DNA of 64,000 bases from Tribonema minus (taxonomy: Eukaryota; Sar; Xanthophyceae; Tribonematales; Tribonemataceae), in the NCBI GenBank assembly GCA_017506865.1, contig JAFCMP010000551.1, forward strand, positions 372,001 to 436,000, written 5' to 3'. The notes beneath the pieces were generated by a model. That model saw only the letters and a list, made by a program, of their open reading frames with translations. It had not been told where the DNA came from and did not search any database. Position numbers and translations under genes: made by a program. Below, in pieces: positions 32,228-64,000 of the stretch. Position 1 is the stretch's first letter. Each line of letters opens with the position of its first letter.

Positions 32228-35200
32228 TCAAGGGCCTATGGTGCCCCAGCGCGAGTACTTGTCGCCGCCGTCGCCGGTGCCCCTTGACGACCCGCCTGCA
32301 GCGAAGTGCAAGCAAATGGGATGTAAGCAAGCGAGATACTGCTTGAGATCACGCGTAAGTGTAAGTGATATGCCAAGTGAGGCGCAAGAGTACTTGTCGC
32401 CGCCAACGCTGGTGCCCCTTGATGACCCGCCTGTGCAGGCCAGTGAAGTGCAACCAAATTAGATGTAAGCAAGCGAGATGCTGCTTGAGATCTTGTGCAA
32501 GTGTAAGCATGTAGTTTGCCGAGAGAGGCGCAAGGGTACTTGTGCCGCCGTCGCGCGTGCCCTTTATGACGCGCCTGCACCGAAGTGCAATCAAGTTAGA
32601 TGTAAGCAAGCGAGATGCTGCTTGAGATCTTGTGCAAGTGTTAGCATGTAGTTTGCCGAGAGAGGCGCGAGAGTACTTGTCGCCGCCGTTGCCGGTGCCC
32701 TTGATGACCCGCCTGTGCAGGCCAGCGCGGTGCGCACATAGCGTGTCACTGAGCACACGCAGGCGAAATAAATGCTATATTTGTGTCCAGGGCCACAGGC
32801 AGGCGTGCACACATTGCGTAGGGCCTGTGCCACAGACTTGTGCTGTCCCACAAATAAAGTAGCCAGGTGGGGTGGTGATACAGCAATCAAGCCCTTTTAG
32901 CGAACAAAACTTGAAGTGTTGCTGCCAATCATGAATTTCTGGGCAACAGGCAGAAGCAGTTCTGCAGGCGACAGCTGAAGAAGCCAGTGTGCCCACGCCA
33001 CAGCTCACATTGGTCATGCAACCGATGCGGTCTCTGCCAGCGTCACAGAGAGGCAACAGGTAGCAAGGCAAAACCACTGAGTGTTGTTGCAATCGCGCAG
33101 TAAAACTTCAACCTAGGCCATGCGGAGACATCCAACAATAATTCCTTGTGCATGTGCATGCTGACATATGCTGTCGTCTGCTCACTCCTTGGCGCACACA
33201 TCCGACCATACTGTAGTTCTCACATTCGGCCATCAAGCAAAGCTTAACCAGGCAGCGGAGCTCACCTTGGTCATAGCTGTTGTACGCTGCCCGTGACTCG
33301 TAGTTGCCTTCATAGCTGCCGCCGCCGCCACCGCCGCCTCTCGTAGCTGCAAGTTAGAACAGCAGCAGTGCATCTGATTCAGTGCGACCCTCAAACAAGT
33401 GCACATGCCAATGATGACGGTAGCTGTGCTTAGAGGGAGAGAGATGATGACAATCATTGGTGCTGAGAGGTGAGGGAAAGGGGGGGGAGGGGGTGCGGGG
33501 TGGGGGGTGGGGGACAGTGCTATGCATACAATGAGCAAGCAGCGGATGCAGCATCATTCCGTTGCATAACCACGATTGATGACGAGCTTCAAGAAGAGTA
33601 TTGTTCAGCTCGCAAGAAGAGTACTTGTTGAGCTTCAAGAAGAGTATTTGTTCAGCTCGTACAAGGTCTCGCCAACACCACTTTTCCTGATCGCAAGGTG
33701 ACAAGAGTGCATGGGGGCTCTGGGCCTTACCTTGTCAGGCTACCGGGGGTTGCACGTCCCCCTCCTCCCTCTCCTTCCCCCTACCCCCGACGCAATAACA
33801 ACTCTTTGCAACCACCAGCCGTCCACAATTATAAGTACTGTTCAGGTGAAACACTAAGGAAGGCTGTGCAGGTACAGTTAATATTGCCTGCGTAGAGGAG
33901 CATTGTGGATGCCCAAGGGCAGCGGGCTGTTGCTCTGCTCTGTCGAAAAGGGCATGTAGGAGAAAATTGCCATCTGAAGGTACATCCAAGAAAGTATTAA
34001 ACGTGACATCCACTGAAGGCAAGTTGCGCGTACCTGGAGGTGCGTTGTAGATCCTCGATGGCGGCGGGCTGTTACTGCACAGACTGTGCAGCACAGTTGA
34101 TATGGGTGTGTGGGTGGATGATGCCTACTTGGGGGTACATTGAGGAAAGTATCCGGGGATGATCTGTACACAAGCAAAGTTCAATAATATATGCGTCCCT
34201 GGAGGCGCGTTGTAGATGCTTGACGGCGGCGGGCTGTTGCTGCCCAGTAGACAACGGCATGTAGGTAACAAATACGTCTAGGGAAATATTGCCTACTGGA
34301 GTAATATTGAAGAAAGTGCTCAGAAACGATATCTACACAAATTGTCAAGGCATACATATGCGTACATGGAGGCGCGTTGTAGATGCTGGACGGCGGCGGG
34401 CTGTTGGTCCTCTGCGCGGGCCGCTGCTGCCCGTACTGGGGCGTGGCGTACTGCGTGGTGTACTGGTTCAGGCGCGCGCGCACGCGCCGCTTGTCGCGTA
34501 TGGCCTCCGCAATGCGGTTGCCCAGGTCCTCCAGGGGGCGCTTGTCCTGCACACGCACATGGGAGGTGTTGGTAAACTGGCATCCGCAAGCAGAGTGTGA
34601 CGATCAGTTTGTAGGCTTGAGACTCGTGTGCATGTATGCCGTAGAGAGTGTGTGTTTTCAGGTGAGCCAAGATACAGCGACTGACTAGTCACTCCTGTGA
34701 ATTGCGCCGATTTTCAAGTCACCCATGGGTGAAGTCACTCATGACTCACACATACGCCTTTGAAATCTGAAAATATAGGTGTGGGGAGACTTGTGGCTGA
34801 CTGGGTGAGGTATGTCAAGACTGTAAGCATTTATGGGATCATGCAGGGCTACGAGCAGCATAACATTGTGGGCATGTGAGCTAACGGAGCAGCTGGACTA
34901 TGGGCCTAGCATCGTCGCCAAGTTTGGCTTCCAGGTGAGCCACGACAGCAATGGACAAGTCACTCAAATCACTGTTACCCTGTTGATAACCCAGCTACAA
35001 ATGTGGGGAGGGGGCTTGATCCGGACCGAATCCGCTGTGGGAAAACCGCATGCAGTGATGGCAACAGGGTTTCTTTGTCTGCCTTGCGCAGGATGCGCCC
35101 CCTGGATGACCAGCCGCAAGGGGAGCCCACAAGGGAAAAGCACCATACGCCTACTTTACAGGGTGAATGCCACGGAAAAATAACAGTCCCACAAATGTCA

Positions 35201-38200
35201 CAGAATGACAGTCTTATAGCAGTTCATCAGATCCTGCTGGCAGACATCAACCTCAACGACTTCACCACTTCACCTTCATCCTGTAGAGCACAACCGCTCC
35301 GTCTGAAAGACCTGCAGCCGCACTGCAGTGCGGCTGCAGACGCCATCAGCAACAAGCACCACACGCCAAACTTGGCGACAATGCTGGGCCCATTGCCCAG
35401 CTGCTCCTCAAGAACAATCACAAAATCCTGCTGTGTGTTCATAGCCCTGCGTTATCCCATTAATGATTGCAGTCTTGACATACCTCACCCAGTCACCCTG
35501 AGGTCTCACCACACCTATACCTTTGAACTTCGAGTGTTCATGAATTCACACATGAGTGACTTGTCAGTCGCCGCAGCTTGGCTCACCTGGAAGCCAAATT
35601 TGGCGACAATACTGGGCCCATAGTCCAGCTGCTCCTCGAGCGTGAAGTGCCACAGGTAGCCGTAGTCCTTGTAGAACTTGCGCTTGAGGGGTGTGAGGGT
35701 GTGGTTGTGCTTGATCTCAATGCGCTTCTTGATCCTGCAGAGCGACACGAGCAAATAGTGGGGGTGCAATAAGCGTCAAAAGCAGTTGGTGGTGGGTGGG
35801 TGGGGGGGGGGGGGGTTCGCGTCAGAAGCAGCTGATGAGGTAAGGGGTTGAGCTGGGGTTTGGGGGGGTGGTATGCACCAGAAGCAGTAGGTGGGTGGGG
35901 GGGGGGGGGGGGTGCCTGATCTCAATGCGCTTCTTCAGCAGCTTCTTCGGCATGCTGAGCGACAGAGCCAGTTGATGGAGGGTGCTTAGCGTCAGGAGCA
36001 GTTGATGGGCGTGTGGTTGTGCTTGACCTTCACGCGCTTCCTGAGCCTGAAGCGCGAAAGAAGCAATGTCGACATGAGCTTCTCCACCAAGCTCACAGCT
36101 CAAGGCAGGTTGCAGAAAGAAGGGGGAGTCATGTGTGGCCAATTACAAGTGACTGTGGCCATGTCACAATGCCATGTGTTGCAGTAGCTGTTGTAGCAGC
36201 TGCTCACTCCCCGGGGTGCACCAGCAATGTATGCCAGGATTATGGCTGTTGCAAGGCCCTGCCCCACTTCACTTGTGGTCTTTGGGCAGACGAGTAGCGC
36301 TAGTATGGCTCACGACACGCTGTGCGGTCTCAAGTACCTAAAATCAGGGTTAGGCAGTCGCTGCGCTTAAGGGACACGTCCTGGTGGGTGTTACTCTTCC
36401 ATCTCCTGCACTGTCACTGCATCCAACTCGGCGTAGTCCCCCGCAGACCAAGACTGCCTTTCAGCCCGCGGGCAAATCACTTGCGTGTGGTGCCAAGCGC
36501 TTGCTGCAGTTGTACACCTTCGCTGCATGAACAAGGCATGTGTAGTCTATGCCGTGAAGTACTTCAAGGGCATGTACATTGTAGTTGTGGCTTGTCAGAT
36601 CATGGCAGGTAGGTATACAAGGACGAACACATGACGCCACGGTTGCTGCAGCTGACAGTATTGCTGAATGGACAATTCATTCATTTTCATGAGTACGCCG
36701 CTGAAGACCGCTGAGCACTGATGTACATGAACTTGATGTGACTGGTCACTCACATGAGGCCACGCGGGTTGTAGAGCCTGTCGTCGCGGCTCCGGTACAG
36801 CAGCAGGAGGTCCGGAAGTTCAAAGATGAAGTACGTGTTCTTCCAGACCTGCAGACAGCAAGGGGAACGGGAGACGTTGTTGAGTTGATGCATGTGTGGC
36901 ACACCTGCACTTTCGTCATACCTGCAATCATAGACAGGAGGACGCATCGCAGCGCGTGCAAAAGAGGATGCTGCCACCGCGTTGTGACTCACAGCACGCG
37001 TGATACATTACGGCACGCTGGTGCTATGTGCTTGAATCATCCACAGTCGCTGTTGGTCTGATGGTGGGTTCTTTCATATACCTCATTATAGGGGATGACA
37101 GATGCAGGGTACAAGAGGATGAGCTCCCTTGCTCGCCACCACCAAACAGCGGTGCTAAGTAAGGCATCTGCCCAAAAGTATCTTCGCTGCACCTCCAGAA
37201 TCTGATCATACAAAACCCTTCGCCACTCAGGCAAAGGTACTAGACCACATGTAGATATGATAGATGTAATACCTGACAGGAATATGCACACTTGCCTTGA
37301 CCAGCAGCGTTCTCTTGCTGATGCGCGCCAGGCATTCGCCATCAGGCTTGTCGCTGCCCTTGCTCTCCGTGCGCGGGGGCGACGCGCTGTTTCAGCACGT
37401 GACGCACACAGCACGAAAAGGATTTTGTCGTGAGCGACGAATTTACACATGGTAGTCCACATGCCTGTGCTACATGGTGATGCTACAGGAGTAAATGTAT
37501 AGGACCGAAAGGGTTGGTGTCGGTGCGCCCGGCGCAGCAGCGTGCAGCAGCGTACATAGAGTAAAATCACATTGTTTGAGAAGTCGGGATGAGGCAGAGG
37601 CAGGCAGCGAAGGTAGCACGACATGGGGTCGTCCTCACCGTGTCATTAGGCGACAGGCAGTGTGGGCAAGGCAGTGACGGATGGACAACTTGCGGTCGTA
37701 TGCACGTCGCAGGTGTCGTGCGTATGGTGAGACACCTGGTGCTTCAATTAGTGGCAGTATATGAACATGTCGAAGGTTCATCCTTGCAGCTCAAGATCAA
37801 AACCTAGCATTGCAAGTGCAAGCAAGTGGACTGAACTTCAACTTGAAGTTTATCAAGACATGTGACGCACCTTTCAGGAGCCTCACCCCTGGCGCGCGCT
37901 TCCTCCTCCTGAGTTCATGCAGGCGACGATGGAGCAAGTATCAGTGCTCAGTGTCGCCCCTCATTCATCCATTCATTCACCTGATCAGACCTGTGACTTT
38001 AAGGGAGTTGGTGACACTGCCGACAGCAAGCGGGCTAACGATCATTGGGCTAACGGTCATTTTATGTGCAGTGCTGACCATGGTGGTGCCCACGCAACCT
38101 TGATGCCTCGGAGGATTACCCTGGTTTCTGGTTGAAGGTGACCAACCGCTCGCAGCATACTGACTTGAAGTCTCGGTGAAAGGCTGCAGCCGTCGAGTCT

Positions 38201-41200
38201 GCGCAACATTCCCCAAGACATGCCAGCTGCATGTGCAAACAACGCGCTGGCAAAACAACTGTGCGACCATTGTGGCACAGGATGCATGTTCCGACTGAGG
38301 TCTTGAAAGCACGTGACACACACATCATGGCAACCACATCCAGCACACGGGAGTGCAAGACATTTCTGAGTTAACGAACACCGTTACAAGCCACTGTTCG
38401 CCACACGCAGGCGTACGGCTGCAGCGCAGACTGTCGAAGTATGCACACCGACTATTCCTATTCAGCACAATTCATACTTGACAAAAACAAAATGGTACCC
38501 CACCTGCTGCAGCTTGAGAGCCAGCTGATAGTGAGAGTCCTCCCGCGCTCTGACTCCGCGCATCGTTGCAAAAAACTCCAGGGATCTTCTCCACACGAAG
38601 GCGCGTGGCTGCAGCATCAACCGACTGCCCTCACACCAAAGTTTCAATGCACCGTCATGAAGCTGCATCTACGCAGCAAACCCACCTGCTGCAGTTTGAG
38701 AGCCAGCTGGTAGTAAGAGCCCTCCTGTGCTACTGACTACACTAATCTTATGTCTCACGACCCGAAACTTCACCATGATCAGGATTGCGGCTGCTTGGCA
38801 AGAGAAGAAGGTAACCCAGCTGCTGCAGCTTAAGAGCCAGCTGATGGCCATGAAAATAATCCTACCTCATGGCTCCTCACGCAGGTGCATCGCCTCAGCA
38901 CCAGTTGGCCCTCACATCAACTATCAACATACTATCGTTAAGCTGCTTCTGCGCAGCAAAGCTGCTTCTATGCAGCAAACCCACCTGCTGCAGCTTGAGA
39001 GCCAGCTGGTAGTCAGAATCTTCCTGCGCCCTGGGGCTGCGCCCGGAGCTGATACTGCCAGCTCCGCCATCATCGTCATCGCTCCATTCAGCCTGGGCGC
39101 AGGTGACAGTGCACAGGTGCATTGGCATATGAAACACAACAAAAAATATGAACCATATTAACACACTTTGCGACGTAAATGTGGTTTATACCTCAGGTAC
39201 ATGTGGCCTATATGTATACAACAGACTGCCTCCGCCATCGTCGTCATCGCTCCATTCTACCCTGAGCACAGTGACAGTACGCAAGCGCATTTACACATGA
39301 AACAAAACAAACATTATGGCAAGTGTTGACGTACTTTGCAAAGAAAATACACCTCAGGTACATGCGGCCTATTCGCATTTGAAAAAAACTGCCTCCGCCA
39401 TCGTCGTCGCCCTTCCTCTCAGCCCTAGGCACAAGTAGCAGCGCACAGGGCCATATGTGACGAAACACCCATGAAAACCATGCAATACGCAACGAAGTAC
39501 TTCAAGTATATGTGACAGCGGCAGTGGGACTGGGCCGCATGCAGACGGCGCCAGCAGCAGCGCTCAGGAAGTCTGTAAGGGTTAGCGTTAGGGTTAGGGT
39601 TAGCACCGACCCGGAGCGCTGCTTTTGCGACGGAGCCAGGCGGCGGCGAGGCGGCGTACGTGCTGGAGCCAGGCGGCGGCGCGGCACCGGCGTGCGCCGA
39701 TGGCGTGTGCGGCTCTGCAGCGTCGGGTGCGAGACTGCACACCTCGTTGCCTTCGCATGCTCTACCAGCAGCGTGTCATGTGTTGGTATACCGTATCATG
39801 CAGCCACAGCCAATGAAGGCGCTCACCACGAGCGCTCAGATATAAGCGCGATTGCGAAAACTCTCGAGGGATGTCGCCATGATGTATATCCGAAGTCATA
39901 TGGGATGCACGTGTGCTGGTTTTCACTACCCGGCTGAGTTGACGGGCAGGCTTGATGAGTTGCAGATTTCTCAGCACGTGTTTAAAAAACGCGTGCGGCC
40001 TTTTTGTCCGCGTCACAAGCAGCCCAGAAGCACCAGAGCCTTCGTAATCACCGCTCCATTTCAATTGGGCCCAAGTACCAGCACAGGGATGCCTGGAGAC
40101 GTAGACACATTTGAAGAGTATACAACGTTCACAATACAACTGACGGCCTCAGCGATCCTCAACTGCAAGTGAGCTCCTCTACGGCAGGCCAACAGGCACA
40201 CAGTTGAGGTACAGCAGCGGTCATTGAACTACAGCAGCAGGCATCGCAAGTGTGTCGCTTCGTCAGGCATGCAAGCACAAAGTTTGAGTAAAACAGCGCA
40301 GATATGTAGGTATGATCGTTGCACTGACCTCATCGTCAGATGCGGGTGATTTGGCTCCAGCGGGCTTAGCCTCCCCCTTCTGATCCCCCCAAATGTCCGC
40401 ATCTGTCAGGTCTCCCCAGCCAGCTGCTCCCCCCCCTGCACCAGCGCCCCCTGCAGCTGCACCCTCCGCAGCCTGGGAGGATAGCAGAACAGCTCTCGCG
40501 TTAATTTGTGATAATGGTGTGTGAATGACGCAGACTTCCGGCGGCCTGGTAGAATGGCAATACGTAACTGGCATGATTGATGCTTTGGATTGTGAGGATT
40601 GATGTGTGAAGAGTACATGCGGATGTTGCACTCATGATGCACCGTTTTGGTTGTGGTTGCAATAATGGGCAGGCACCAAGGTGATGCCACTGCAAGTAAC
40701 CAGTCCAAGTAAAGACTGTGCAGCAGCATATTCACATTCAGCCTGCAGCAGCAAACTGTCTTCATTTTGCGCGTGCCACCTGCAGCAACCCCATCAACTG
40801 TGACGCCCCATAGCATTGCCATTGAAGATCCTCTGTTTGATTCAAGTTATTCAAATACTTTTGGGTATGTCACCTGCTGTTGCGCGGGCGCACCCGCCGT
40901 TGGTGCGCCGGAAAACGGATCCCACTGGCCTGCCGGCGCACCTGCTGGCTGCTGCTGCGCAGTAAGAGCATCAGCAGGCAGAGATTAGATCAAGTGAGGT
41001 TGTACAAGTGTGCGCCTGCTGCGGCGCTGCTCTGCTGGCCTTGTTGCGGTCATAGAGTATCAACGTAATGAGACAAGCACACGCTTTTGTCTGCAACTTC
41101 AACTGGTGACGCACGTGCTGCTGCGCTGTCACAGAGGATCAACGTTATGCAATACACGCACGCTGTCGCCTCAGTCTGCGACTTCAACTGGTGACGCACC

Positions 41201-44200
41201 TGCTGCTGCCGCTGCGGCGCCGCACTGCTGGCCTTGTCACGGTCAGGCTACCAACGTGATGCAGAGAAACCCACGGTAACCATGCACGCCAATTTCAACT
41301 GGTGACGCACCTGCTGCAGCGCGTGCTGCGGCGCCGCCCTGCTGGCCTTGTCAAGGTCAAAGTGTCAACGTGATGCGACAAACGCACGTCTTTGACCGTA
41401 CCCACAACCTCAACTGCGGCGGCGCGCGCGACGACGACGTGCCCCAAGGTCAATCAACTGGTGACGCACCTGTTGCGCCTGCTGCGGCGCCGCCCTGTTG
41501 GCCATTGCTGCGCCCGCTGCGGACGTGCTGAAGGGGTCCCACGCCCCTGAGGGCGCCCCCGGTGCCGAGCCCGCAGGCGCCGGCGGCGGCGCGGTTGAGA
41601 AGGGATCCCGCATGCCTGGCATGCATACGGTATGACGGATGCATACGCACGGTGAGACTTTGTGTAGAGACGGCAGGGAGGTCTCTCACATACCTGGCAT
41701 GCATACGGTATGACGGATGCATACATGCGGTATGACGTGTGTAGAGAAGCGGCGGCGCGTTGAAGAGGGATCCCGCATACTTTGCGTACGTATTGTAGCG
41801 CAGCATGGTGTGCGCGTGGGTCAGAGCGCGCATCGCATGCTGCGTGCCAGAGATGCGCTGTTGTTAGTTTGCCTGCCGCGGTGGAGAAGGGGCCCTGTAG
41901 ATCTGGCATACATGCAGTATGACAAGCATGTTATCGTATTAACATTACGCATATAGGCTGGCATGGTAACCCTGACTCTAATCCTAGCCTAACCCTATCC
42001 CTTAGATCATTGGATTCATTGATCGACCCCCCAATTAACACCCCCCCTCACCTGCCGGCTGCTGGTACATGCCGTACGCCGCCTGCGGCAGCTGCTGCTG
42101 CGGCTGCTGCTGCTGCATCTGCGCCGTCTGGTCAAACGGATTGACCGAGGGCGCGCCTAGCGACATGCCCCCCATGCCCGCAGTGAGTCCCGCCATCATG
42201 GCAGCGCTCGGCGCCGTGCTGAACGGGTGCTGCTGCTGCTGCGCGTGCATGGGCATCATGCCGGCGCTGGTGGCGAAGGGCATGCCCCCCATGGGCATCA
42301 TCTGCGCGGGCGGCGCAGAACGGAGGGGGCGTGGTTTCAGGGGTATGTATGCTTGTAGGTATACATACGCAGCAAGTACTGGGTTGGTACTTTGAGCGCG
42401 CGGCAGCGCCGCATGTGACGCATGGCACCCTCTGCGCTGTAGGCACGGGCGGTGTCAGAGGTATTCAGCACTGCGCATGGTAGAGGGCATGGCGCCCATG
42501 GGCGACTTCTGCGCACTTGAAATGCGATTCAGGGGTGTGTATGTGGTTTCAGGGGTGTGCAGGCATTTCATAGGTATCAATAAAACGGTGGTTTCAAGGG
42601 TATGCAACTCAACGCAACCTAGCTAGCTACCTATACGGGGTGTCACGATTTGGACCATGCCACAAACGTGCGCCGCTAGGACGACTGGCGATGCAGTATC
42701 TGCAGCAGCATGTACTGCCGTCACCGCTGATAGCATCACGCGCGCCGCTTGAGACTATCTATAACCGCAAGTGCGGTATGAGATGCTGCCCTGTTGAGCC
42801 TCCGCGAACCGCTTCAACGACTCGACTCAAAGATTCAAAAATGGCTCTGCGGTCAACAACAAGACGTTCTGCTCTGGCGTGTGCGAACTCACAAGCGCCA
42901 CCGCCACTACAACGGGCTTCAAGCTTGTGCATGTCATTGAAATGACAGCAAGCACTTGACAATGCCATCCTGACAGCTTGCATAGTTCAAAACCCTGCAT
43001 CCCATATGAGAGAGTCCATGTTGCCCATGAGCTCCAGGCACAGGGCTTGTGTAGGTATATGCCAGACTGTGGTTCAATGGTCGTATTGCCTTTTGCCCAC
43101 TCATCGTTCTCTGCCAGCTTCATGTAGCACTTTGACCAGCTCTTGATGCAATTGTTAAGAATCAGCAGATATCCTGCGAACGCACAAGTTGAAGATGCCG
43201 AGCCTGTGTGGGGCGTGCATGCCTGATTGAAGTTATGATTGAAGTTCCTGGCACATCCCTACCCCATCCATCAACAGTACCATTTGTAGGACAGTGCCTC
43301 GAGAGCTGCAGTGGCCCAAAGCTGTCAGCCACCGAATGATGGGGGGTCGCCAACTGGCCTGCACACATACTGTCAACTTGAACTCTGAGGCAGCATCATT
43401 TTGCGTACAGGTTAGAGCCCAGCGCGTGCAGCGCAGCGACTCAGCGGCTGTAGCCAGTGCTGCTCAGAAGCGTTAATCGCTTACAGTCACCGTAAGGGGC
43501 AACTCGACCCTCCTGCCGCTCCTCCACCCCACCGGCACTGCCTTCGCCGCCTCCACCTTTGAGGAGCATACATAGTGCATCAGGCGTTGTTGGCCAACCG
43601 TGCTGGTCATCACGGTCACCAACATGCGCCCTCCCCCCCGCGCTGCCCCTCCCCGCCCCTCCCCCCGCCCCCCCAGCAAAGCCCTCGTTACACGCAAAAA
43701 TGGGCCGCAGCAATACAAACCCACATGCAGCCATGCATATGAGGAGCACGGCATGGTTTGTGTCATGTAACTGACTTGTGTGATGCACTGCTACATCAAG
43801 TGCAGCGTTGCAGTGCTCACCTGCATGGGCATCGCCGTGGCATACATGCCCCCCCCCATCCCCCCCATCATACCCCCCTGCGGCATCGCCTGCATCATCA
43901 TCGGCTGCTGCTGCTGCTGCATCTGCATCGGCGCCTGCATGGCCGCGGGCGGCGCCGTGGAGAAGTCCGGTGGCGCCGCTGCTGCGGCACGGTATGCATG
44001 TATAGGTACACGTATGATGGTAAAGTATGTATGCATGGAAACGAATCAAAAGATTGTATGCACCATTCTAAGTGGTTGTCGTGGAGAATTCCGGCGGAGC
44101 CGCTGCTGCGGCACGCAATGTATGTATAGGCATACATATAATGGTAAGTATGCATGCGCAATGGTAGGTGGTCATCATGGAGAAGACCGGCGGAGCCGCT

Positions 44201-52800: not shown

Positions 52801-55800
52801 ACTTTGATGTTCAGGTATGCTCGAGTGCCAACACTGGTAGGTAGGCAGGCTTCAGCCAATGACTTATACCTTCAGAAATGCCCGAGAGTCAACACTAGCA
52901 GATACCTAGATCTACGAGTCCCTGTGCAATGCGCGTTATGTCTCACCTGGTTCCAGACCGTGTGCCGCGAGGCCCCTGCTGGCCTCCGCCGCCAGCGCAG
53001 TGAAGGCCATGTAGCCTTCGATCAGCTCACGAACCTGGTCAACCTGCCGTTGTCAAGCAGCGAGCGTGAATGCGTGAGCAGATGGTGTGACTGAACCGCG
53101 CAATGTTGGGCTTGCATATGGTGGAAGGCTCGCAGCAAACTCATGGCGGTGCCTCCACATGCTGTAGCCAAGACCAGCCGTGGCTGGTCGTGTCTGCTGA
53201 CACTTGTCACGCCTCAGTCTGATGGCTTTGAAGACTTGTAATGTCATGGTTGTACAGTAGCGCTGCCACTCTCATAGGTCGTAGTCACGAGTGCCAAAGA
53301 GGCTGTGCAACTGCCAGCCACCAGCTGTATGCAAGCAATGGAAGTCATATGCGGTGGCCATGCTGATATGATAGGAACAGTAAGCGCCGCTAACAGCAGC
53401 CGCCATCAGTGGCTGCAACGCTTGCATGGGCCCCGGGAACCCTAAACCTACCCTGACCCGAATCCTTACCCTAATGCCGGCGTTTGTCGCCACCATAACC
53501 CTAGCCTCCATCCTGACACCAACCCTACTCCATCCCTAACCCTGACGGTGACGGTCATGAGTTTTGACCCTAAGCGGCGCAACCCTGCCCATGCGCACGC
53601 CCTGACCCTCATCCCAATCCTGACCCTGACGTGTGACCCAGGGCAGAAATCATCACCCGCAGTGGTTTGACCATCGGCGCCAAAGAGAAAGCCGTGCAGC
53701 ATCTTGCGCATGCGCGGGCTCTGTCCTCTGTGAGCGCTAGCCCTAGCTTTAGCACCAGCGATCAACGATCACGCAGCCTGATCCTAACCCTGAAGCTAAT
53801 TCTTGCCCGAACCTTGCTCCAACCCTAGCCCTAACCCTATCCTTACCCTGACGCACAGGAACCCTCACCTGCAGCGTTCGGCCGTCGGCGCCGTAAAGAA
53901 AGCTGTGGAGCATCTTGCGCATGCGCGGGCTGTCCTCCGTGAGCGCTAGCCCAAAATTGGATGCTAACGATCATGCAGCCTAATCCCTAACTTGAGCAGT
54001 CCAACCCTAACCCATGGTCCTAGCTCTAACCCTGAAATTAACCCTGCCGCTAACCCTGACGCGCAGCGAAGCCAAAAAGTGTAACTGTCACCTGCAGCGT
54101 GCGCCCATCAGCGCCATACAGAAAGCTGTGCAGCATCTTGCGCATGCGCGGGCTGTCCTCCGTGAGTAGGCGCCGTGCGAGGTAGGGGAAGCACTCCTGT
54201 ACAATGGAGTAGCGCGGGTCCAGCTTGAGGCCGAGGCCCTCGATGGAGCCAAACGCGCGGATGATCAGGCCAAAGTACGAGGGGATGCCGATGGGGTAGT
54301 TGCGCGCCAGTTCCTGTGACATTGCAGTTGAAGTTTGAGGTTCAGAATTGAGGTTTGAAATATCATATGCGGTGAGGTGAAGTGGCTTTTGGGGTCGTGA
54401 GGCCAGACAAGGAGGGGATGCCGATGGGGTGGTTGCGCGCCAGTTCCTGGAGGTTCAAAGTTGCAATGTGAAGCTGGGTGTTAATGTATGGCGACGTGGT
54501 GACATGACCCATGCGACACGACGCTGCCGCATGCATGGCTAATCTAGCGAGCTCGCATGCAGCGCCATCACGCAAAGCATGGCGCAGTCTGCATTGGCGC
54601 TGCCGGTGATCAACAGTTGAAGTTTGTGGGCTCACCTCAACTTCCTCCCCTACGGCCTCAATGGTGATGGACTTGGCGCCGCCGCCTTCACTCAGCTGCT
54701 CCATTACCTGTGGAGCGTCATCAAGCACCACCGGCATATGGCAGCGAGTCACCATTCCTCCATAGCACATGGCAGTGAGTCGGCATTCCTCCACTGCCAG
54801 CGGGAACTTGGTAGCCCAGCTCAGTCAGGAGCTTGTCAGAACAGACAATAGCAGCCCAGGCTATATTGTTCAGCTCCATATTGTACGCAGGTTCACAAGT
54901 TCAATCGCAGGTCCGATCACACATCAAGCGGTGAAATGCTGCTCTGCTGTCAGCATGTGCACCCACCGATCACTCCTGCTTGGCTGCGCCTACAGAAACA
55001 GCTTACTAGCACATGTGCGTAACCTGTGCCCCCCACAAGTGATTGGGTACGTCACAGAGCCTCCCCAACGTCCGTGCATCATGAGCAGATAGCACATGGC
55101 ATTGCTGCTTTCAGTGCTAGTGCCGATGCTTGCAGCTGTGCACGACTCTCACCACTTCGACTTGTGACGCTCACAATCAGTGTGTGTGCTTGGCTTGGCG
55201 AGCAGCGGCGCGACGAGTGCGCCGTCCGCTGCTCACGGCTCTCAACACTTCAACTTGTGGCGCTCACAAATAATGTTTGTGGTTACCTTGGCAAGCAGCG
55301 GCACGACGAGTGCTGCCTTCTGCAGGTCGGCGCCGACGCGCCGGTTAATGAAGTGTAGTGTGATGAGGTCCTGCAGCGACTTTCAATACTTCAACTTGTG
55401 ACGCTCACCACTAATAAGTGCGCTTACCTTGGCGAGCAGCGGCACGACGAGCGCTGCCTTCTGTGGGTCGGCGCTGACGCGCGGGTCTATGAACTGCAGC
55501 GTGAGGTCCTGCAGCGACTTTCAACCCTTCAACTTGTGACGCTCCCAACTTGAAGTTCATCAAATGGTGCTTGCAAGTACCTTGGCGAGCAGCGGCACAA
55601 CAAGCGCTGCCTTCTGCGGGTTGGCGCCGATGCGCGGGTCTGAACTGCAGCGTGATGAGGTCTTGCTTTTTTGAAACGTCAACTTGTGACGCTCCCAGCT
55701 ATTGACTAATTGAATATGCTGAATAAGTACCTTGGCGAGCAGCGGCACAACGAGCGCTGCCTTCTGCGGGTCGGCGCCGACGCGCGCGTCGATGAACTGC

Positions 55801-58800
55801 AGCGTGATGAGGTCTTGCAGCGTGGCGTCGTAGTCCTTGGAGGTGAGGTGGATCACGTACTCCACCAGGGCGTAGCGCTGCTCCTCGGTCACCTGCGCGC
55901 AGTGCTCAATGACAAAGATGGTTGCTCAGAGGTATCTATATCATCATGTGATATAAATAAAGTGGCAGTTTCCAAGGACGTGAGCAAGCATGAGGGCGTA
56001 GCTCTGCTCTTGGGTCACCTGCGCGCAACAACAGGGAGGATTTGTGCGGAAGTACTCACTTCATTCGTCAACATCAAAGTTGCGGTTTACAAGCGTATGG
56101 GGAAATGCATGAGTGCGTAGCGCTGCTCCTCAGTCCCCCGAGCGCAACGGCGGAGAAGTCTTGTTCAGAAGTTTTTACTTCATTATGTGATGTAAATGAC
56201 GTTGCAGTGTTAATCCATGCGTGCGTAGCGCTGCTCCTCCGGCACCTGCGTGCAGCACTCAGCAACGATGATGAAGTTGTGTTCAGAAGTGTACCTCATT
56301 ATGTGATGTAAATAACGTTGCAGGTTCCAAGGTTGTGGGTTATGCATGAGTGCGTAGCACTGCTCCTTGGTCACCTGCGCACAGCGCGCTACGACAGGGA
56401 CGTTTGTTCAGAGGTATAATCGATGTATATATTTACTTGCAGTTTCTGGGATTGTGGGTTCTCCATCGGTGTGCATTTGTACTGCGTGCGCCGTGGCTGA
56501 ACTTGAAGTCGCCGGGAATTGTACTGGATTCAGTTGTTGTCAATGCACCGCATACACATGCAACAGCTGTGAATTTCCATGAGCCTTGCCAGCTGGTTGT
56601 GATGATGCATGCCTATCGACTTCAAGCAGATCCGCGTAACCCCAGCTGAGCTTGCAAATGGACACGTGCAGACCTCTAAGAGCGCACCTCTGTCGTGAGG
56701 CAGTAGTCGAGAACGACATAGTTGCCGTCGGCCGTCACGAGGAACTGAAAGATGCTCAAAGTCACGCTGCATTGTGCAGTACTTGTGAACTTCTAGAAAC
56801 GCACCTCTGTCATGAGGCCGTAGTCGAGGATGACCAGCTTGCCGGCGTCCGTCACGAGACAATTTGAATTTACGCTAGAGAACGCTTAAAGTTACGCTGG
56901 ATTGCAGTCCCTCTTAACTTCCAAGCGTACCTCTGTCATGAGGCCGTAGTCAAGGATGACAAGCTTGCCGGCGTCCGTCACGAGGAAGTTTCCCGGGTGT
57001 GGATCGGCGTGCAGAAAGCCCGACTCCAGCAGCTGCGTCAGGTACGAGTTGAGCAGCGTGGCCTGCAGAGCCGCCAGCATCGCTCGCCCCTCTGTTCACA
57101 GAATTGAGAAGAAGAAAAACATTGAGCAATAGCAAAACGCTCATGTGAGTCTCTCTGATGCACACAAACACTGTCAAGCTCAAGCTCAAACGGCCTTAAC
57201 CCAATTCCCAACCCTATTCCTAGTCTGCAGTGCCGCCAGCATGGCTCGTCCCTCTGTTCACAGAAATGAGCAGCGATGAAAGACCATGTGAGTCTCGCTG
57301 ACACTTGCAACATCGGCAATTTTTACCCTCACCAACGATGACGCGAGTCTCTCTAAAACTCACAACACTGTCACAACACTTGTCAAGCTTGAAGCGTAAC
57401 CCTGACCCCAACCCTCACCCAATCTCCAAGCGTAACCCTGACCCCAACCCTCACCCAATCTCCAACCCTAATCCTAGTCTGCAGGGCGGCCAGCATAGTG
57501 CGCTCCTCTGTTCACAGGAGGAGCAGCAGTACAATGATGATATGAGAACCCATTCATGCACACGCTGAGGAGCCGTTATCAGGATGCTTCCGAAGTCACC
57601 CTGGTACTGAACAGTATGAAACCCTAACCCTAACGCTAACCCTCACCCACACCTCAACCCTAACTGTAGTATGTGGCAGTGTGGCTATCCCAGGGGAGCT
57701 GCCGTCGCACTGTGTGCAACATCGTCCGGCGGTGACAATGTACATGTGGGACACAGCACCCTACTAACCCTAATCCTGAACTCTCGCCCTAACCCTCAGC
57801 CGCGATCTGCAACCGGCACGCACTTGAATTTCTAACTGAAATCTAAGACTAATATAATCAGTATGGTGCCACTGGCAGTAGTACAAGTACATTGGCAGGC
57901 GCGGCAACTTGCACGTCCTGTGACGACAACTGACGGAAAGAGGCATGCAGATTAGATGAGAAAATGCTTGACGATGAGCCCAACACTACATCAGACCATT
58001 TGCCCATGTACCTGGCTTGGTGGCGTCGATCTTGGACAGCTTCTCCCCAGTCACCCATTCTGCAGGGGCACAAGACATAGAGTACATACATGAGCCGCAA
58101 GATGGCGTGTGCCAATCTTTCAGGCTTATTGACAGGCCAGGACGCATACTTGGACCCGGCGCTGGCGCTGAGCAAGGTTGTACAGACAACAGCAAGTGGG
58201 CAGTGAGGTCAGCAAGCCTGCAACAGCAGGCTCAAAACGAGTATAGAAAGGGTGGTGATGCTTCTGCAAGTACATTGCGAGTACATATGCGATGAAGCCG
58301 CAATGACCCTGACAATGGCAGGCCAAAACTTACTCCTCGCCCATGATCATGAGGCGTTTGCCCTCGTGTGGTCACTGCCATGCATCAAGCTACACTTTCT
58401 GGTAGTATCCTCAACTGGCGCAGGTGTTTCCATACGCTTTGATGGCTCCCAAATGTCGACCACTTTCCATATCGATACCCCGCTAGACAAGGACTGGTGA
58501 CGATGTCTGTGTATGGGTAGTGCTCTCAAAGAGTACTCGGCATCTACAATGATTGCATGTGTGAACGCACATGTGTACTTCAATTGTGCAGCGCCAGTGA
58601 CATGCCAATACATACCTGTTGTCAACATGTAGCGAGTGGTCATGGAGTGGTACACTCGCGGTACAATGATGGCCTGCCCTAGCGCTTCGCTCTTGGCCAT
58701 TTCAAGCCTGAACCTGCACGACCGCGCAGCAGCGTGAGCGTCGTGAATGTGTCAGTCACAACAGTCGTTGATACAGTGTTGAGTGAAAGTGTTAGGGTTG

Positions 58801-61800
58801 GAGCTAGGGTAAGGCTGGAGATCAGGTTAGAGTGAGGGTTTAGGTCAGAGTTTGTCGAATGCATGATGAGTCGCCAGTCTGCCTTGGAATATGTGTGGGT
58901 GCAAGACAACGCCTAGCGCATGACATGGTAAAAAGCAGCAGTTTCAAACACAGTCTATGCCCCAGCGCCAGTCTGGCTCCATGCTTAGCACACCAGACAC
59001 CTGCCAATGAAGCACGCGGCGCTTGGGCCCGTTGGCTGCTGCTCGCGTGCACAGCACATTGCATGATATGCACTATGTGCAACAGCTGCCAAGCGGATGA
59101 AACTGTGTACATGTGCACAGATCTGTGGCAGGCTGACCTGCCTGCATATTGACCTGTCTGCACACGGCATATCGCATGCATCATGCATGAACTATATTGA
59201 AGAGATGTACAACAACTTCAAGTGTGATGCCACTGTGTACACAAGTCTGTGGCGGGCTGACCTGCCTGCGTTGGCATGTCTGCGCACGGCACATTGCATC
59301 ATATATCATGCATGTAGTATTGTACATGTATGATAACTCCAAGCGTGACGCCCTTGTGTCTGATCTGGTCTACGCACGGCATATCGCATGCAGCATGATT
59401 GAAGTATTTGCAATATACATAAACTTCAGAGCATGACGCCCCTGTGTACACAAAAGTTGTGGTGGGCTGACCTGTCTGCGTTGGCATATTGACCTGACAC
59501 ATCGCATGCATCATGCACGAAGTACTGATGATATACAATGACCTCAAGTGTGACGCCCCTGTGTACCACAAGTCTGTGAAGGGCTGACCTGTCTGCGTTG
59601 GCTGCCTCCGTCAGGTAGTCCAGTTCGTCCATGAAACGGACGGCCCAGGAGTCGATGCAGCTGCGGAATGCCTTTGCCGTGTCGCCAAGACGCACTGGGC
59701 CAATCCTGGGCGCAGCGAGTAGCGGATCACTCAGTGAATGCAATGTACTTCGAAGTATATAATAGCAGGGCAAATCCTGGGTGCAGCGGCACAGCACGCA
59801 CGATCCACACACATTGCGTCACATGGCCGGCTCTCGATGCGCATGTGGACATGCACTGGCAGTGCGCAACGCAGGCGCAGAGACATGCATGCATTTCAAG
59901 TCTGTGGGTGCAAGAAAAGCAAGGTTCGGGCGGTGGTGCTGCTGGCGTGTGTCCCACAGATGGGAGCGCAGCATGTCCCCGAATGTGGCTCTTGCCTCGA
60001 CAATCACAGCTGCTGCCCAAGCCACAGCTGGTGCACTGATGCAGACACCATTTGTCGATCATGGCGGTAATGCGTTACCACTGACCGGTCGCCTAAGGTC
60101 GGGCTGCATTGATACCATGGGTACTGCTTCCACGTACTGTGCACACTGATCACGTCACAGAATCAGGCTTCAAATGGATAGGCATCCATGGTTACCAAAC
60201 CCTAACCTCACCCTAACCCTAACCCTGCACGGGCCGCCACGAGCTCTCACATGTGCTGCGGACACTGCAACTCACTACTACTGATTCTTACTTCCTCACA
60301 GCACATCATTTCGTTACTTCTGCTGCACGGCTGGAGCAATGTCTGTACTTCAGGTGTGGCGCGCTGTGACGCGTGCGCTCCTTTCCACACTTGAGTATGG
60401 TCCTCAGTACACGAGTACACCAGTGGACTGTCAGTGCGCAACGCACTCATGAGCGCTTCATTATCCATGAAAACGCACTTCATTCCCACACTGCAGAGCA
60501 TGTCTGTACTCCAAGCGTGATGCTTCGAAGAGCGCACTCACTTTCCACACTTGGCGAGCAGGTTGAGTATGATCCTCATGACGTACAGGTCACGTGTCAC
60601 TGTGAACAGCACCTCGGGGCGCTGCACCTTGACCGCAACCTCGTCGCCGGTGGCACGCAGGCGCGCCTTGTACACCTGTTGTGTAATGTGCATGCAGCGA
60701 GTATGAAACCGTCAGAGGATGTAACTGCCATTTGTCTAGTGACTGCCTTGTGCACCTGGGCACGAGCGCTTGCAGCGAGGATGAAACTGGCAGAGGTTGG
60801 ACTGTTTTTTGAACATGCCATGTGTATGTCTTGTACACCTGGCACATGCAATGCGTGCATGCAGCAAGGTTGAAAATGTCAGAGGGTGTAACAGTTGTGT
60901 CTTGTAACTGCCTTGTACACCTGGCGCTTGCGTGCATGCAGCGAGGCGAGATGAAAGAAGCTGTAACTGTCGCACCGTGAGTCAGCGAGATCGCTGGCGC
61001 GCAGGCAGCGGGAGTCTGTTTTCGGTACAGGGCTACTGTTTGACCGCTTGAGTGACACAAGCAAGCGACATAGAAAAACACTTGATCATGTAAGTGTTCA
61101 CTGAAGCCATCCATGCTTGTGTGTACAACTTGACAGTACGGTCCATTGTGCTTGACCTCGATACGCTCCTAGCCGCTTTTTACATACAATCAAGTCCACC
61201 ATGAAGTTCTCACAGTGCACTTGCTCTCAGCGAGAGATAACAAGAACACACACTCACCTGGCCGAGAGATGCCGCCGCAACAGGCTTGGCAAACACGGAT
61301 GCGTCCTCAAAGACGTCCTCCAGCTTGCGGCCCAGGCTCGCCTCAAGTGTCGCGCGCGCCTGCAGCACACGTATACATGTGAACATGCATTTGGGTCAGA
61401 TCACGTGTGGTGCAATCGCTAAAGCATAAGCACTTCAAATTAAAATTGTGACACCTCCTTGGCGTCAAAGGGTCCACCCTGTCCTGCACCATGTGTGTCA
61501 ATGTGCATGCATTTGCATGTGTCATACTTGATCCAAGACTTTGTGCATGCATTTGCATGTGTCATACTTGATCCAAGACTTTCAAACACTGCAAAGTCAG
61601 TGCTCACCTCCTTGGCGCCACTAACACCTCAGTACCACCAATTTCGAATCCTTCCACCAAGTTCAAGAACTGACATCAAATACAAAACTGCAACTCATCA
61701 AGTAAATAATGCAGGTCAGTGCTCACCTCCTTTGCGCCAAAGGGCTCCACCCTGTCCTGCAGCTTCTCCATCTCCTTGATCCACGACGCTGGCAGGATGT

Positions 61801-63860
61801 CGGGCCGGATGGACGCGCCCTGGCCCACCTGTTCGTGACAACACAATGGGTAAGGAGGCAATGGCGACATATGCTGATTTATCAAATTTGATCCGTTGGT
61901 AGTCGTAACAGTGACAAAGCAGCAGGGCACAGATGCAGATCCACGTTTCTGCTAGGCAGCAACCAGTGACCATGGACGCGCTCCCGCCCTCCTGTTGTGA
62001 CAACACCAATAAGTGAGGAGGCAATGGCAAAATATGCTGATTATCTGCACATGCGTCGGTTGCCACTATGCGGCAGTCCTCATGAGGAGCCGCAGAGTGT
62101 ACGTACCACTACCCACGTGATACATGTGCACACCACTATCTACATGTATGCTGGGCAGCGAACCGTTGATCGCGGTGGCAGGCACACACATGCGTGTTGC
62201 GCCATGGCCTGTCTTGATAGGGCCGCACAAGCGCGCCCTGCCAATGGCAGTGATGCCACGCATCAATGTCAGTGCCTCATTGCACCTGTGCCGGTTCGGG
62301 TATCGGCAAGTCTGTGCCTAATCCTGACCTTAACCTCAACCCTCATCCTGAATCTAAACGTGGCTCTCAGGTCAACCTGTGATTGGCACCAATGCTTCAT
62401 GCAACTCATGTTGACTACGCGCCTTCAATTATGCGCGGCTGCGCCAACGCCACATACATGCTGTATGATGAGTTGATTGCGCGCCTACATGCAACCTTTG
62501 AACAACACCATTACTTCATGCGGTACACATTGACAGCGCGCCTTGCCCCAACAGACATGGGCGGCTGCGCCAACGCATGCATACATGCTGGTGTGATGAG
62601 CTGATTGCTCGTCGATGAACAACACCAGTACTTCATGCGGTACACATTCACAGCGCGCCTTGCCCTCATGCACATGGGCGGCTGCGGCAGCACACACACA
62701 CAAGCATGCGCGCACGCGCTTGCCTTGATGAACGCGGGCCCGTTGCGCCCAACCTGTAAAGAACACCAATATCTCATGCAGTTCATGTTGACTGCGTGCT
62801 TTCACAATGCACGGCTACGCTAACGCACACGCACACTTGCCTTGATGAACGCGGGCCCGTTGCGTGAGGTGAGCTCGCGTAACTGCTGCCCCCTGAGGGG
62901 CTGGTTCTCATCCCAGCGCCCCATGGCAATGTCCTTCAGGAGCTCAATGGCAAACCAGGAGAGGGTCGATGACACCTGCGCACAATGAGAAGAGAGAAGC
63001 GGCGGTGGCGGCAATGGCGGCAATTTTAGCAGGCGTTCAGGAGCTATTGTGCCTGTGATTGGCGACAGAGGCTAAAATCCCCAAGCTCATGTTGCAACGC
63101 CCAAGTACACGTGTACTGCCATGCAAGGGTTCTGCTGCAGTGCTCACAGTGCCCACAAACCGCATGGCGTGCCGAGCGGCGGACGATTCAGCCCCCCTCT
63201 CTCGCCAATTCATGCCAGCCCCAACCCAACTCAACGTGCGGCACCTGTGAGCATTGTATGTCATGCGCTCCTGCTCCCGCCTACTTGATGGCATGTGGCA
63301 TGTCTTCCGCCCACTGGACCACGATATCGGTGCATGCATTCACATGGAACGCAGTGTGCTGTACAGGTGGATACGGGCGCGTATGCAGACTGTCGCGTGG
63401 CTACACCGGCATAGCGCGGAGCGCGCATTACTACATTAGCTTATATGTGCTTATGTACGCTCCCAGCAGCTCGGATGAGAGCCACGCTCAATTAGCGCAT
63501 ATGTGTTGTATAGGACGGCGCGCATGATAGGATTTCCTCCCCTCAAGCGAAAGTAAATAAAGTTCACAGCGCGTGCTTTCTCACCCCCAGGGACCGGTGC
63601 GCCACCAGAATGGGCCGCTGTGCTGTTGTTGCGTAAGAAGTGGCGCATGATAAGGTTCAACTTGAAGTTCCCGCCCGCCAAACGGAAGTGAATAAAATAT
63701 GCAGCGCGTGCTTGCTCACCTCCAAGAACCGGCGCGCCACCAGAATGGGCCGCTTGCTGTAGAAGTTGTGCAGCGCGTCCAGGTCGTACGTGGTGGGCAG
63801 GTCCTGAGCACTGGCAACGCCGCTGCTCGCGCGGTCAACCACTGACAGCGCTGCCTTGAC
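46768..63860 (-). CDS. ABC1K: ABC1K / UbiB-family atypical kinase (at least 19 exons, 5' end outside window)
   Basis: Exons: 63720-63860, 62841-62975, 61727-61828, 61258-61359, 60542-60675, 59589-59705, 58616-58713, 58012-58059, 56931-57091, 55731-55892, 54636-54707, 54092-54313, 52947-53043, 52261-52313, 51278-51358, 50544-50723, 49714-49841, 48504-48621, 47756-47916, and tentatively 46768-46888 with the stop. Every junction is phase-consistent. Signature motifs: FIK then VGQGASIRPD (KxGQ), AAASLGQVYKA (Ala-rich loop), VAVKVQRP (Lys), DELDYLTEAAN (ExD), FLHADPHPGN (catalytic loop) and LDYGLMTE (DFG equivalent). ABC1 kinases regulate quinone and prenyl-lipid metabolism in plastids (plastoglobules) and mitochondria. 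The long C-terminal part after the kinase resembles plant plastid members, but compartment is not shown because the N-terminus is missing. Confidence 0.9.
47935..48015 (+). repeat. Telomere-like TTAGGG units in an intron
   Basis: Two units, ATAGGGTTAGGGGTAGCGGTGCG at 47,939-47,961 in part and CAGGGTTAGGGTTAGCGG at about 47,999-48,016, stand about 60 bp apart in a duplicated context (GGCATG..GCAT). Confidence 0.6.
49220..49775. repeat. Donor copies of ABC1K exon 49714-49841
   Basis: The exon end and donor (plus-strand CACTTGCGCC.TGCGGAGGC, then GCGATGATGCGCCGCAGCGC) recur at about 49,224, 49,382 and 49,617 downstream of the real junction at 49,711. The 49,382 copy retains about 65 bp of exon. 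The exon's 5' end is also echoed at about 49,975-50,000. Confidence 0.85.
50266..50287. repeat. C22 homopolymer
   Basis: A run of 22 cytosines in an ABC1K intron. Length may be unreliable in any assembly. Confidence 0.8.
50340..51095. repeat. Junction copies on both sides of ABC1K exon 50544-50723
   Basis: Donor side: CACCTGCACGGGCAGGAACA...GAGCCCCTCCG.GGC recurs at about 50,355 and 50,448 with period about 95 bp. Acceptor side: GTTCGTCCACAACAAGGTCCTGCG is echoed at about 50,826, 50,947 and 51,068. A copy of the neighbouring exon's donor lies at about 51,185-51,205. Confidence 0.85.
53440..54190. repeat. Donor copies of ABC1K exon 54092-54313 mixed with CCCTAA tracts
   Basis: The exon end (plus-strand AAAGCTGTG.AGCATCTTGCGCATGCG, then CGGGCTGTCCTCCGTGAG) recurs at about 53,868-53,950 and 53,662-53,740. 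Degenerate CCCTAA/CCCTGA repeats fill the spaces (53,440-53,550, 53,780-53,850, 53,985-54,060). One acceptor-side copy lies at about 54,405-54,450. Confidence 0.85.
55145..56395. repeat. Junction copies on both sides of ABC1K exon 55731-55892
   Basis: Donor side: CCTTGGC.AGCAGCGGCAC.AC, then GAG.GCTGCCTTCTG, recurs at about 55,279, 55,429 and 55,580 (period about 150 bp), each followed by CTTCAACTTGTGACGCTC in the intron. Acceptor side: GCGTAGC.CTGCTC.T.GGTCACCTGCGC recurs at about 55,997, 56,116, 56,224 and 56,350 (period 110-127 bp). The real exon is the only unit with both ends. Confidence 0.9.
56675..57535. repeat. Junction copies on both sides of ABC1K exon 56931-57091
   Basis: Donor side: CACCTCTGTC.TGAGGC, GTAGTC.AG and CCGTCACGAG recur at about 56,682 and 56,803. 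Acceptor side: GCC.CCAGCAT, then CCTCTGTTCACAG, recurs at about 57,230 and 57,485. The outer acceptor copies are separated by degenerate CCCTAA-type sequence at 57,190-57,480, which itself contains a duplicated AAGCGTAACCCTGACCCC. Confidence 0.9.
56931..57091 (-). CDS. Catalytic-loop exon of the ABC1K gene
   Basis: 161 bp encoding GRAMLAALQATLL, LESGFLHADPHPGN and KLVILDYGLMTE. HADPHPGN holds the catalytic Asp and metal-binding Asn of ABC1 kinases and DYG replaces DFG. Acceptor TGAACAG, donor GTACGC. Two decayed copies of each end of this exon lie in the neighbouring introns, so the full-length version here is the only one with both motifs. Confidence 0.9.
59120..59790. repeat. Junction copies on both sides of ABC1K exon 59589-59705
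   Basis: Donor side: TGTGG..GGCTGACCTG.CTGCGTTGGC recurs at about 59,125, 59,247 and 59,457. Acceptor side: CAAATCCTGGGTGCAGCG at about 59,769 echoes the real CCAATCCTGGGCGCAGCG. Short words such as CGCATGCATCATGCA recur between the units. Confidence 0.8.
60190..60235 (-). repeat. Interstitial CCCTAA tract
   Basis: AACCCTAACCTCACCCTAA followed by CCCTAACCCTGC: four near-perfect telomere-type units inside an ABC1K intron. Confidence 0.75.
60365..60970. repeat. Junction copies on both sides of ABC1K exon 60542-60675
   Basis: Donor side: CTCCTTTCCACACTTGAGTATGGTCCTCA at about 60,378 echoes the real exon end. Acceptor side: CCTTGT.CACCTG...GCGTGCATGCAGCGAG recurs at about 60,747, 60,831 and 60,910 (period about 80 bp). 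Confidence 0.8.
61450..62065. repeat. Junction copies on both sides of ABC1K exon 61727-61828
   Basis: Donor side: CACCTCCTT.GCGCCA and GGG.TCCACCCTGTCCTGCA recur at about 61,455 and 61,606. Acceptor side: GGACGCGC.C, CCTGTT.GTGACAACAC and GAGGCAATGGC recur at about 61,975-62,035. A CATTTGCATGTGTCATACTTGATCCAAGACTTT block is directly duplicated at 61,510-61,580. Confidence 0.8.
62400..62875. repeat. Donor copies of ABC1K exon 62841-62975
   Basis: GCGCGCCTTGCC and ATGGGCGGCTGCG units recur at about 62,430, 62,537, 62,655 and 62,730 ahead of the real donor. The copy at 62,722 also keeps the non-canonical GC donor (AAG then GCAAGC). Confidence 0.75.
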
Positions 63861-64000
63861 CTGTAAGCGGCGGCAGCAGCAGCGGCAGCAGCAGCACGAC
63901 AGTAGCAGCACGACAGGGAGTCAGTGTAACGGAGGACATGAGTATGCTCAAAGTACAGGTGTACTGCATATCGTTGAGCACTGGCGACGCCGCTGCTGGC
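63515..64000. repeat. Junction copies on both sides of ABC1K exon 63720-63860
   Basis: Donor side: GCGCGTGCTT.CTCACC.CCA and CGGTGCGCCACCAGAATGGG at about 63,570-63,620, in a unit of about 130 bp also repeating GCGCATGATA. Right of the exon, GAGCACTGGCGACGCCGCTGCT at 63,976-63,997 echoes the exon interior, so a further copy or the preceding exon region continues beyond the window. Confidence 0.75.

Follow-up and report, generated by a model that had tools for sequence, protein, structure and literature searches.

Why do the introns of a gene carry pieces of the exons on either side of them? The question is raised by a 64,000-nt stretch of the genome of Tribonema minus (158 Mb in 554 contigs), comprising positions 372001 to 436000 of the contig that we call C548 and hereafter referred to as the window. 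Tribonema is a xanthophyte and a member of the PX clade, to which the brown algae likewise belong. Two minus-strand genes in the window, A and B, were described in an initial annotation, made from the letters of the sequence alone, as having introns built from degraded tandem copies of their own exon edges. Our analysis shows that in many T. minus genes the introns hold decayed, same-strand, head-to-tail copies of the adjoining exon edge, which we call echoes. Intron lengthening is usually attributed to transposons and random insertions. The echoes suggest that introns grow when short segments spanning the splice junction are duplicated, and we think it probable that the lengthening here proceeds by short direct tandem duplications with the splice junction at their centre.

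The sample was defined with a purpose-written protein-to-DNA spliced aligner. It comprises gene A of the window, an ABC1/UbiB kinase (Pfam PF03109, E=5e-65); a histidyl-tRNA synthetase gene (HisRS) on contig C100; an SNF2 ATPase gene elsewhere on C548; seven further ABC1K loci on other contigs, contributing 24 introns that two or more homologues delimit at both ends; and a paralogue of gene A on contig C88, with six introns. Together these loci provide 59 introns, grouped in 12 sets of which gene A accounts for two; no intron of locus L027 passed the support filter. The C88 paralogue is treated separately and does not enter the edge/interior or shuffled-pair sets, which leaves 53 homology-checked introns at 10 loci. 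The eight HisRS exons were obtained with the T. minus protein P0121 (100% identical to the query), and a Heterococcus protein gave the same eight together with three spurious short ones. The SNF2 exons were obtained with P0241 and P0243, the first of them with P0247 alone. P0241 is 88% identical to the search query, and all 634 of its residues align to the SNF2 locus on C548; this NCBI Tribonema SNF2 model begins at MGLGKT, with the exon that follows an echo-rich intron of 673 bp, and the public model seems to lack an N-terminal part.

How regular is the pattern? The exon edge, taken as the last or first 50 nt, is copied in its own intron at 44 of the 106 edges, compared with 3 of 5512 shuffled edge-intron pairs, the comparison by which the initial annotation had wished its pattern to be judged. 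The copies keep to their own side, as had also been claimed: among 41 internal exons, the exon end recurs in the downstream intron of 20 and the upstream intron of none, and the exon start recurs in the upstream intron of 16 and the downstream intron of one. Exon middles are copied in 1 of 18 cases in each direction. An exon-only search yielded 84 echoes: 25 introns contain donor copies (51 in all) and 19 contain acceptor copies (33 in all). Forty of the donor echoes lie in the donor half of the intron and 30 of the acceptor echoes in the acceptor half (hand count), and a single echo of the 84 reaches the far end of its own exon. Echo-bearing junctions have one to seven copies, each holding a median of 54.5 nt of exon (quartiles 40-71), at a median spacing of 141.5 bp (quartiles 124-180, 5-95% range 94-292 bp), which is near the period of 80-240 bp estimated by eye. 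Likewise, 69 local repeat arrays were found in the 59 introns, 47 of which contain at least one; 56 of the arrays are anchored at a junction (29 at the donor, 26 at the acceptor and one at both), and the other 13 are intron-internal. Introns with an echo (37 of 59) have a mean length of 925 bp, those without one 648 bp (P=0.006), and the step in GC content between exon and intron showed no clear link with echo presence (P=0.13 over introns). To say that the introns are built from such copies was nevertheless too strong: recognisable exon-derived sequence makes up 11.4% of intron bases, and 32.4% of the intron DNA, summed over the sampled echo-bearing gene sets, lies between the used junction and the farthest recognisable echo. 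An artefact of assembly, for which we found no supporting point, is extremely improbable given that echoes differ from their exons by 0-24% (mean 9.5%) with individual changes, occur on many contigs, and are absent from some genes. The genes that show them include HisRS, the SNF2 ATPase and the seven further ABC1K loci.

In the window itself, gene A occupies 52947..63887 on the minus strand according to spliced alignment to the homologues P0001 and P0004, with the 3' end of the last exon taken from P0004. Alignment to P0001 gives 13 exons: 63720-63887, 62841-62975, 61727-61828, 61258-61359, 60542-60675, 59589-59705, 58616-58713, 58012-58059, 56931-57091, 55731-55892, 54636-54707, 54092-54313 and 52947-53043. 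Two of these, 55731-55892 and 56931-57091, had been picked out in the initial annotation and are matched to the base. Comparison with the C88 paralogue adds further C-terminal exons to about 47756 on the same strand. With exon-only edges of 60 nt, the own-intron score is above that of each of the 11 other introns at 11 of 24 junctions; 11 of the 24 junction scores, ranging from 27 to 100, are matched by at most 2 of 200 shuffles, and the wrong-side scores, to which no shuffle test was applied, are 14-27. When the adjoining intron is included, a junction-anchored array is present at 17 of 28 junctions (12 introns plus two C-terminal ones; hand count), so that, with 8 of 20 junctions in gene B, the earlier figure of some two dozen junctions for the window is about right.

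Exon 55731-55892 illustrates the layout, all of the following features being on the minus strand. Its four donor echoes span 55194..55672, with copy ends at 55581, 55428, 55287 and 55194, which place the echoed junctions 150, 303, 444 and 537 nt into the intron; GT is retained in the first three. On the other side, four acceptor echoes span 55993..56374, with exon-derived parts at about 55993-56018, 56114-56137, 56223-56245 and 56349-56374. Similarly, exon 56931-57091 has two donor echoes within 56688..56858 (56805-56858 and 56688-56744) and an acceptor echo at 57225..57253, and exon 54092-54313 has a donor echo at 53869..53934 and an acceptor echo at 54400..54446. Single donor echoes accompany exons 63720-63887 (63585..63626), 62841-62975 (62724..62747, identical at 24 of 24 nt) and 61727-61828 (61455..61489). 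Exon 50544-50723, another of the examples first put forward, bears two donor echoes within 50355..50488, 94 and 189 nt into the intron, and an acceptor echo at 51053..51086.

Gene B was predicted by our own gene finder only, and its pieces matched no Pfam family; the 8 echo-bearing junctions are among the 20 of its 10 candidate exons. The predicted exon 41470-41615, likewise an original example, has three donor echoes within 41007..41346, at 156, 270 and 463 nt into the intron, and an acceptor echo at 41750..41780. Donor echoes of the predicted exon 34366-34546 lie within 34034..34238, 167 and 332 nt into the intron, with a third at 474, and the predicted exon 35587-35734 has a donor echo at 35359..35406 and two acceptor echoes 205 and 312 nt upstream of the exon. 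The candidates 38985-39036 and 38686-38724 resemble each other, and one of them may therefore itself be an echo.

Do the duplications favour the junctions, or are copies of an exon edge simply easier to see? Short tandem duplication might occur untargeted throughout introns, edge copies being more visible as the exon is conserved, and if ancestral introns were short nearly any duplication would span a junction. To weigh this we scored 50-nt sliding segments for the presence of a copy. At donors the fraction with a copy is 0.49 for -50..0, 0.45 for -25..+25 and 0.19 for 0..+50; it falls in the range 0.17-0.36 farther into the intron and does not exceed 0.07 for segments starting at least 125 nt inside the exon. 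At acceptors the edge segments reach 0.45 and 0.39, against 0.11-0.21 inside the intron. The ratio of edge to interior copies is 2.0 (bootstrap 1.62-2.74; 53 introns), being 1.81 for gene A, HisRS and SNF2 together and 2.66 for the other ABC1K loci. We then simulated uniform tandem duplication with neutral decay and conserved exons, starting from introns of 150-700 bp and applying the same detector. Under this untargeted neutral model the ratio was 0.49-0.77 over 11 pooled runs; across 60 replicates of 53 introns it did not exceed 1.0, and no replicate reached 2.0. In three further neutral runs, for which only profiles were obtained, the edges were again below the interior. With junction-centred duplications added, the ratio rose to 1.5-2.5. 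Moreover, untargeted duplication would be expected to copy 79 nt of exon, and the observed stretches are shorter (Kolmogorov-Smirnov P=2e-9) and too tightly centred; the shortness persists in the 38 echoes from introns flanked on both sides by exons of at least 120 nt (P=8e-5). Placement is thus not independent of exon edges as it is in simple intronic tandem repeats, and the simulations support the conclusion that duplications prefer junctions, for which mutation and retention are both possible sources. We regard untargeted duplication as unlikely, even though some of the observations in the next paragraph speak for it.

Several observations weigh against junction-centred duplication. A rotation test of repeat coverage was flat, with 9/24, 8/14 and 7/16 junctions covered against means of 8.3, 4.7 and 7.4, as untargeted duplication would have it. 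This flatness arises because long arrays fill the introns, so that coverage cannot show where an array is anchored, and the array-level and segment-level tests accordingly reversed the first impression that it gave. The youngest repeats are only weakly enriched at junctions, again in keeping with untargeted duplication: at 95% identity or more, 7 of 10 lie there (expected 4.8, P=0.11; P=0.41 if exon detection is favoured twofold), and at 92% identity 8 of 10 (P=0.046; 0.23 with the same twofold bias). At 90% identity the count is 11 of 13 (P=0.002; 0.035 with the bias) and at 85% it is 20 of 24 (P=0.0002; 0.017). On average, the 50 nt of intron that adjoin an echo are no closer to their counterpart than random sequence is (0.675 compared with 0.676), and the fraction of intron parts scoring at least 30 is 0.37, against 0.62-0.99 and 0.40-0.72 in neutral runs; exon parts thus appear to degrade at a slower pace than simple neutral decay would permit. 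The weak intron-side likeness may reflect short intron parts of the units together with a high rate of intron indels; alternatively, the exon-derived side may be weakly constrained or may undergo gene conversion templated by the exon. In some units the intron part is clearly copied, with 50 of 50 nt in the first echo of SNF2 intron 1659 and 45 of 50 in L022 intron 735, and the duplication there was therefore at the DNA level. No simulation setting reproduced all of the statistics together. Finally, some genes are spared: none of the 12 junctions of the C88 paralogue has an echo and all four of its arrays are intron-internal, and the gene-finder introns on C88 (12, in the same stretch as the six), C10 (14) and C50 (2) have no echo. 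The initial annotation's view that each exon is flanked by echoes of its own edges thus holds at many junctions but not at every junction or in every gene. Growth by duplication across the exon boundary does extend to unrelated genes and is side-specific, and the genome-wide reach proposed for it becomes, in our sample, a widespread one with exceptions.

Selection is a second source of junction preference to be considered, the echoes being kept as splicing elements, whether as decoy or spare donors and acceptors or as exon-definition enhancers. GT is retained in 41 of the 51 donor echoes (with GC in three more) and AG in 26 of the 33 acceptor echoes, and the first two donor bases are kept at 0.86, which equals the highest of 12 neutral runs and is above six others. 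A retention of about 80% is also roughly what a per-site divergence of about 10% would leave. Of the alignable columns, those on the exon side mismatch at a rate of 0.097 (with 0.56 gaps per 100), those at the splice site at 0.056 (0.77), those on the intron side at 0.197 (3.0) and those of intron-only repeats at 0.183 (1.8). Slower decay of exon parts than of the adjoining intron is what selection would give; the twofold difference in mismatch is about what constraint on the exon copy alone would produce, which suits untargeted duplication. When exon-derived parts were made to decay 3-10 times more slowly in simulations without junction preference, the ratio was 1.0-1.6 in pooled runs and at most 1.54 in 60 replicates, none of which reached 2.0.

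The codon counts, based on 69 echoes after the 15 of 84 without an unambiguous frame were left out, can be read in two ways. Mismatches between echo and exon number 71, 50 and 181 by codon position, and codons with a single change comprise 146 synonymous and 96 non-synonymous ones, where a non-synonymous fraction of 0.741 is expected without constraint; both counts point towards selection. Against it, 21 of 22 gaps break the reading frame, and changes private to one echo are nearer neutral (32/31/52 by codon position; 45 synonymous, 70 not). On these two grounds a coding function of the echoes is rejected, and we attribute most of the third-position bias to synonymous change in the exon itself, which the comparison with the copy brings out. 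Also in favour of selection is the 1125-bp SNF2 intron at C548:210090-211214, where the last ~26 nt of the exon plus GTGCGTC are nearly unchanged in seven donor echoes and the upstream exon-derived parts of the farther echoes are visibly diverged (by eye). A junction core conserved beyond its surroundings was seen in this one SNF2 array and is not general, according to a rough test whose extension step was not properly anchored, which voids its values for -90..-60. Overall, we judge the retention of echoes as splicing elements to be quite unlikely. Polarity proved uninformative, as the nearest copy is the most alike in 13 of 20 arrays compared with 14/22, 7/15 and 3/8 in neutral runs.

We therefore return to short direct tandem duplication centred on splice junctions. 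We propose that a unit of ~140 bp straddling an existing junction, with ~55 nt of exon and ~85 nt of intron, would be duplicated in place. The outermost donor, or the last acceptor, would stay in use, leaving the messenger RNA and the protein unchanged, and the extra exon edge would be left behind, silent, inside the intron. Repetition at one junction would build an array, whose copies would subsequently degrade, having little function, if any. Homology does place the exon limits at the outermost sites. Tandem duplication across existing junctions is the simplest account of the layout, the sidedness and the decay; duplication at the DNA level would be its single cause, and the preference for junctions may arise at birth rather than by selective retention. 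As to molecular cause, we favour break or replication repair at the exon-intron step. It is conceivable, though we advance it tentatively and with some doubt, that splice junctions are hot spots for directed tandem duplication in nucleosome-sized units, such that gene architecture steers new intron DNA and turns short introns into long ones in Tribonema and perhaps in its brown-algal relatives.

Other repeats in the window should be mentioned. A 137-bp-unit tandem array of 3.3 copies lies at 32253-32715, outside the homology-checked gene models, and a Ty3/Gypsy-like retroelement on the plus strand at 14562-22373 encodes reverse transcriptase, RNase H and integrase, with a weak protease match below the cut-off. 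Between the protease and the reverse transcriptase, this element carries a frame with a C-5 cytosine DNA methylase domain (PF00145, E=2e-18), an association also reported for retroelements in other algae.

What do the echoes offer beyond the description of an unusual architecture? The copies are a fossil record in which the conserved exon dates each step, and it becomes possible to measure directly how introns grow, how fast and how silently they do so, and how far spare splice sites are tolerated. One kind of mutation links intron growth with intron gain, and if junctions truly are mutational hot spots, then gene architecture would shape its own mutation.

How, then, do the Tribonema arrays compare with known systems? 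Mobile intron-making elements, or introners, also place repeated sequence, in bursts, within the introns of many genes, but they are one family inserted at many places, whereas in Tribonema each array derives from the exon edge beside it, and no repeat unit common to the genes was found. Comparison of the 59 introns with one another gave 34 matches of 19-51 bp, the sequences of which were not inspected and 28 of which involve one intron of locus L025; no longer unit is shared, and we give almost no credence to introners or another repeat family as the source. In the introner paper PMC9860276, a term search gave no mention of Tribonema, tandem or stramenopile. L025 is also the gene set richest in telomere-like tracts of the TTAGGG type, of which 269 8-mers occur in 48.5 kb of intron from gene A, HisRS, SNF2 and the ABC1K loci, against ~6 in shuffles. 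No such 8-mer occurs in 9.7 kb of exon, nor in the C88 paralogue or L021. The idea that the tracts are scars marking echo boundaries was rejected, since they are present at 2 of 84, below the 4.4 of random positions.

Intronic minisatellites are tandem repeats of ~100 bp within introns, and exon duplication yields copies of exon sequence; Tribonema units differ from both in straddling the splice junction and in containing a whole exon in only 1 of 84 echoes. That count and the frame-breaking gaps likewise distinguish them from alternative or mutually exclusive tandem exons, which are complete and keep the frame. Repair of paired nicks or staggered breaks gives direct duplications of such size, and we know of no reason for duplications of this origin to centre on splice junctions. 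Intron gain at staggered breaks has been described (PMC3443670), and the Tribonema breakpoints are too decayed for comparison.

The initial annotation knew of no named phenomenon with this layout, and we found no description of it in the open-access literature, in which the closest relative is intron gain by tandem genomic duplication within exons. Applied to our introns, this process would copy the start of the downstream exon at the intron start and the end of the upstream exon at the intron end. The kind of mutation is the same and many junctions read AG|GT; furthermore, one 699-nt exon of the C88 paralogue (C88:17780-23594), a gene of very different structure with fewer introns and without echoes, corresponds to exons 1-4 and the start of exon 5 of gene A, so that gene A has introns where its paralogue has none. 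Nonetheless, echoes sit beside their own edge, in the intron halves counted above, and intron starts do not resemble the start of the following exon, nor intron ends the end of the preceding one. We accordingly consider intron gain very improbable as the origin of the echoes. In reports on such gain, it is a piece of exon that is duplicated, and it gives rise to a new intron (PMC3443670; Drosophila cases, PMC2891723); a potato RdRp case is also on record (PMC4974935). As in those cases, a short direct tandem duplication including splice-site sequence is spliced out and leaves the protein unchanged; in contrast to them, Tribonema units span an existing junction and not a segment inside an exon, intron number stays constant, and the copies stand beside their own edge and are repeated into arrays. 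On our reading, duplication here acts on existing junctions, whereas the known tandem-duplication intron gain acts inside exons.

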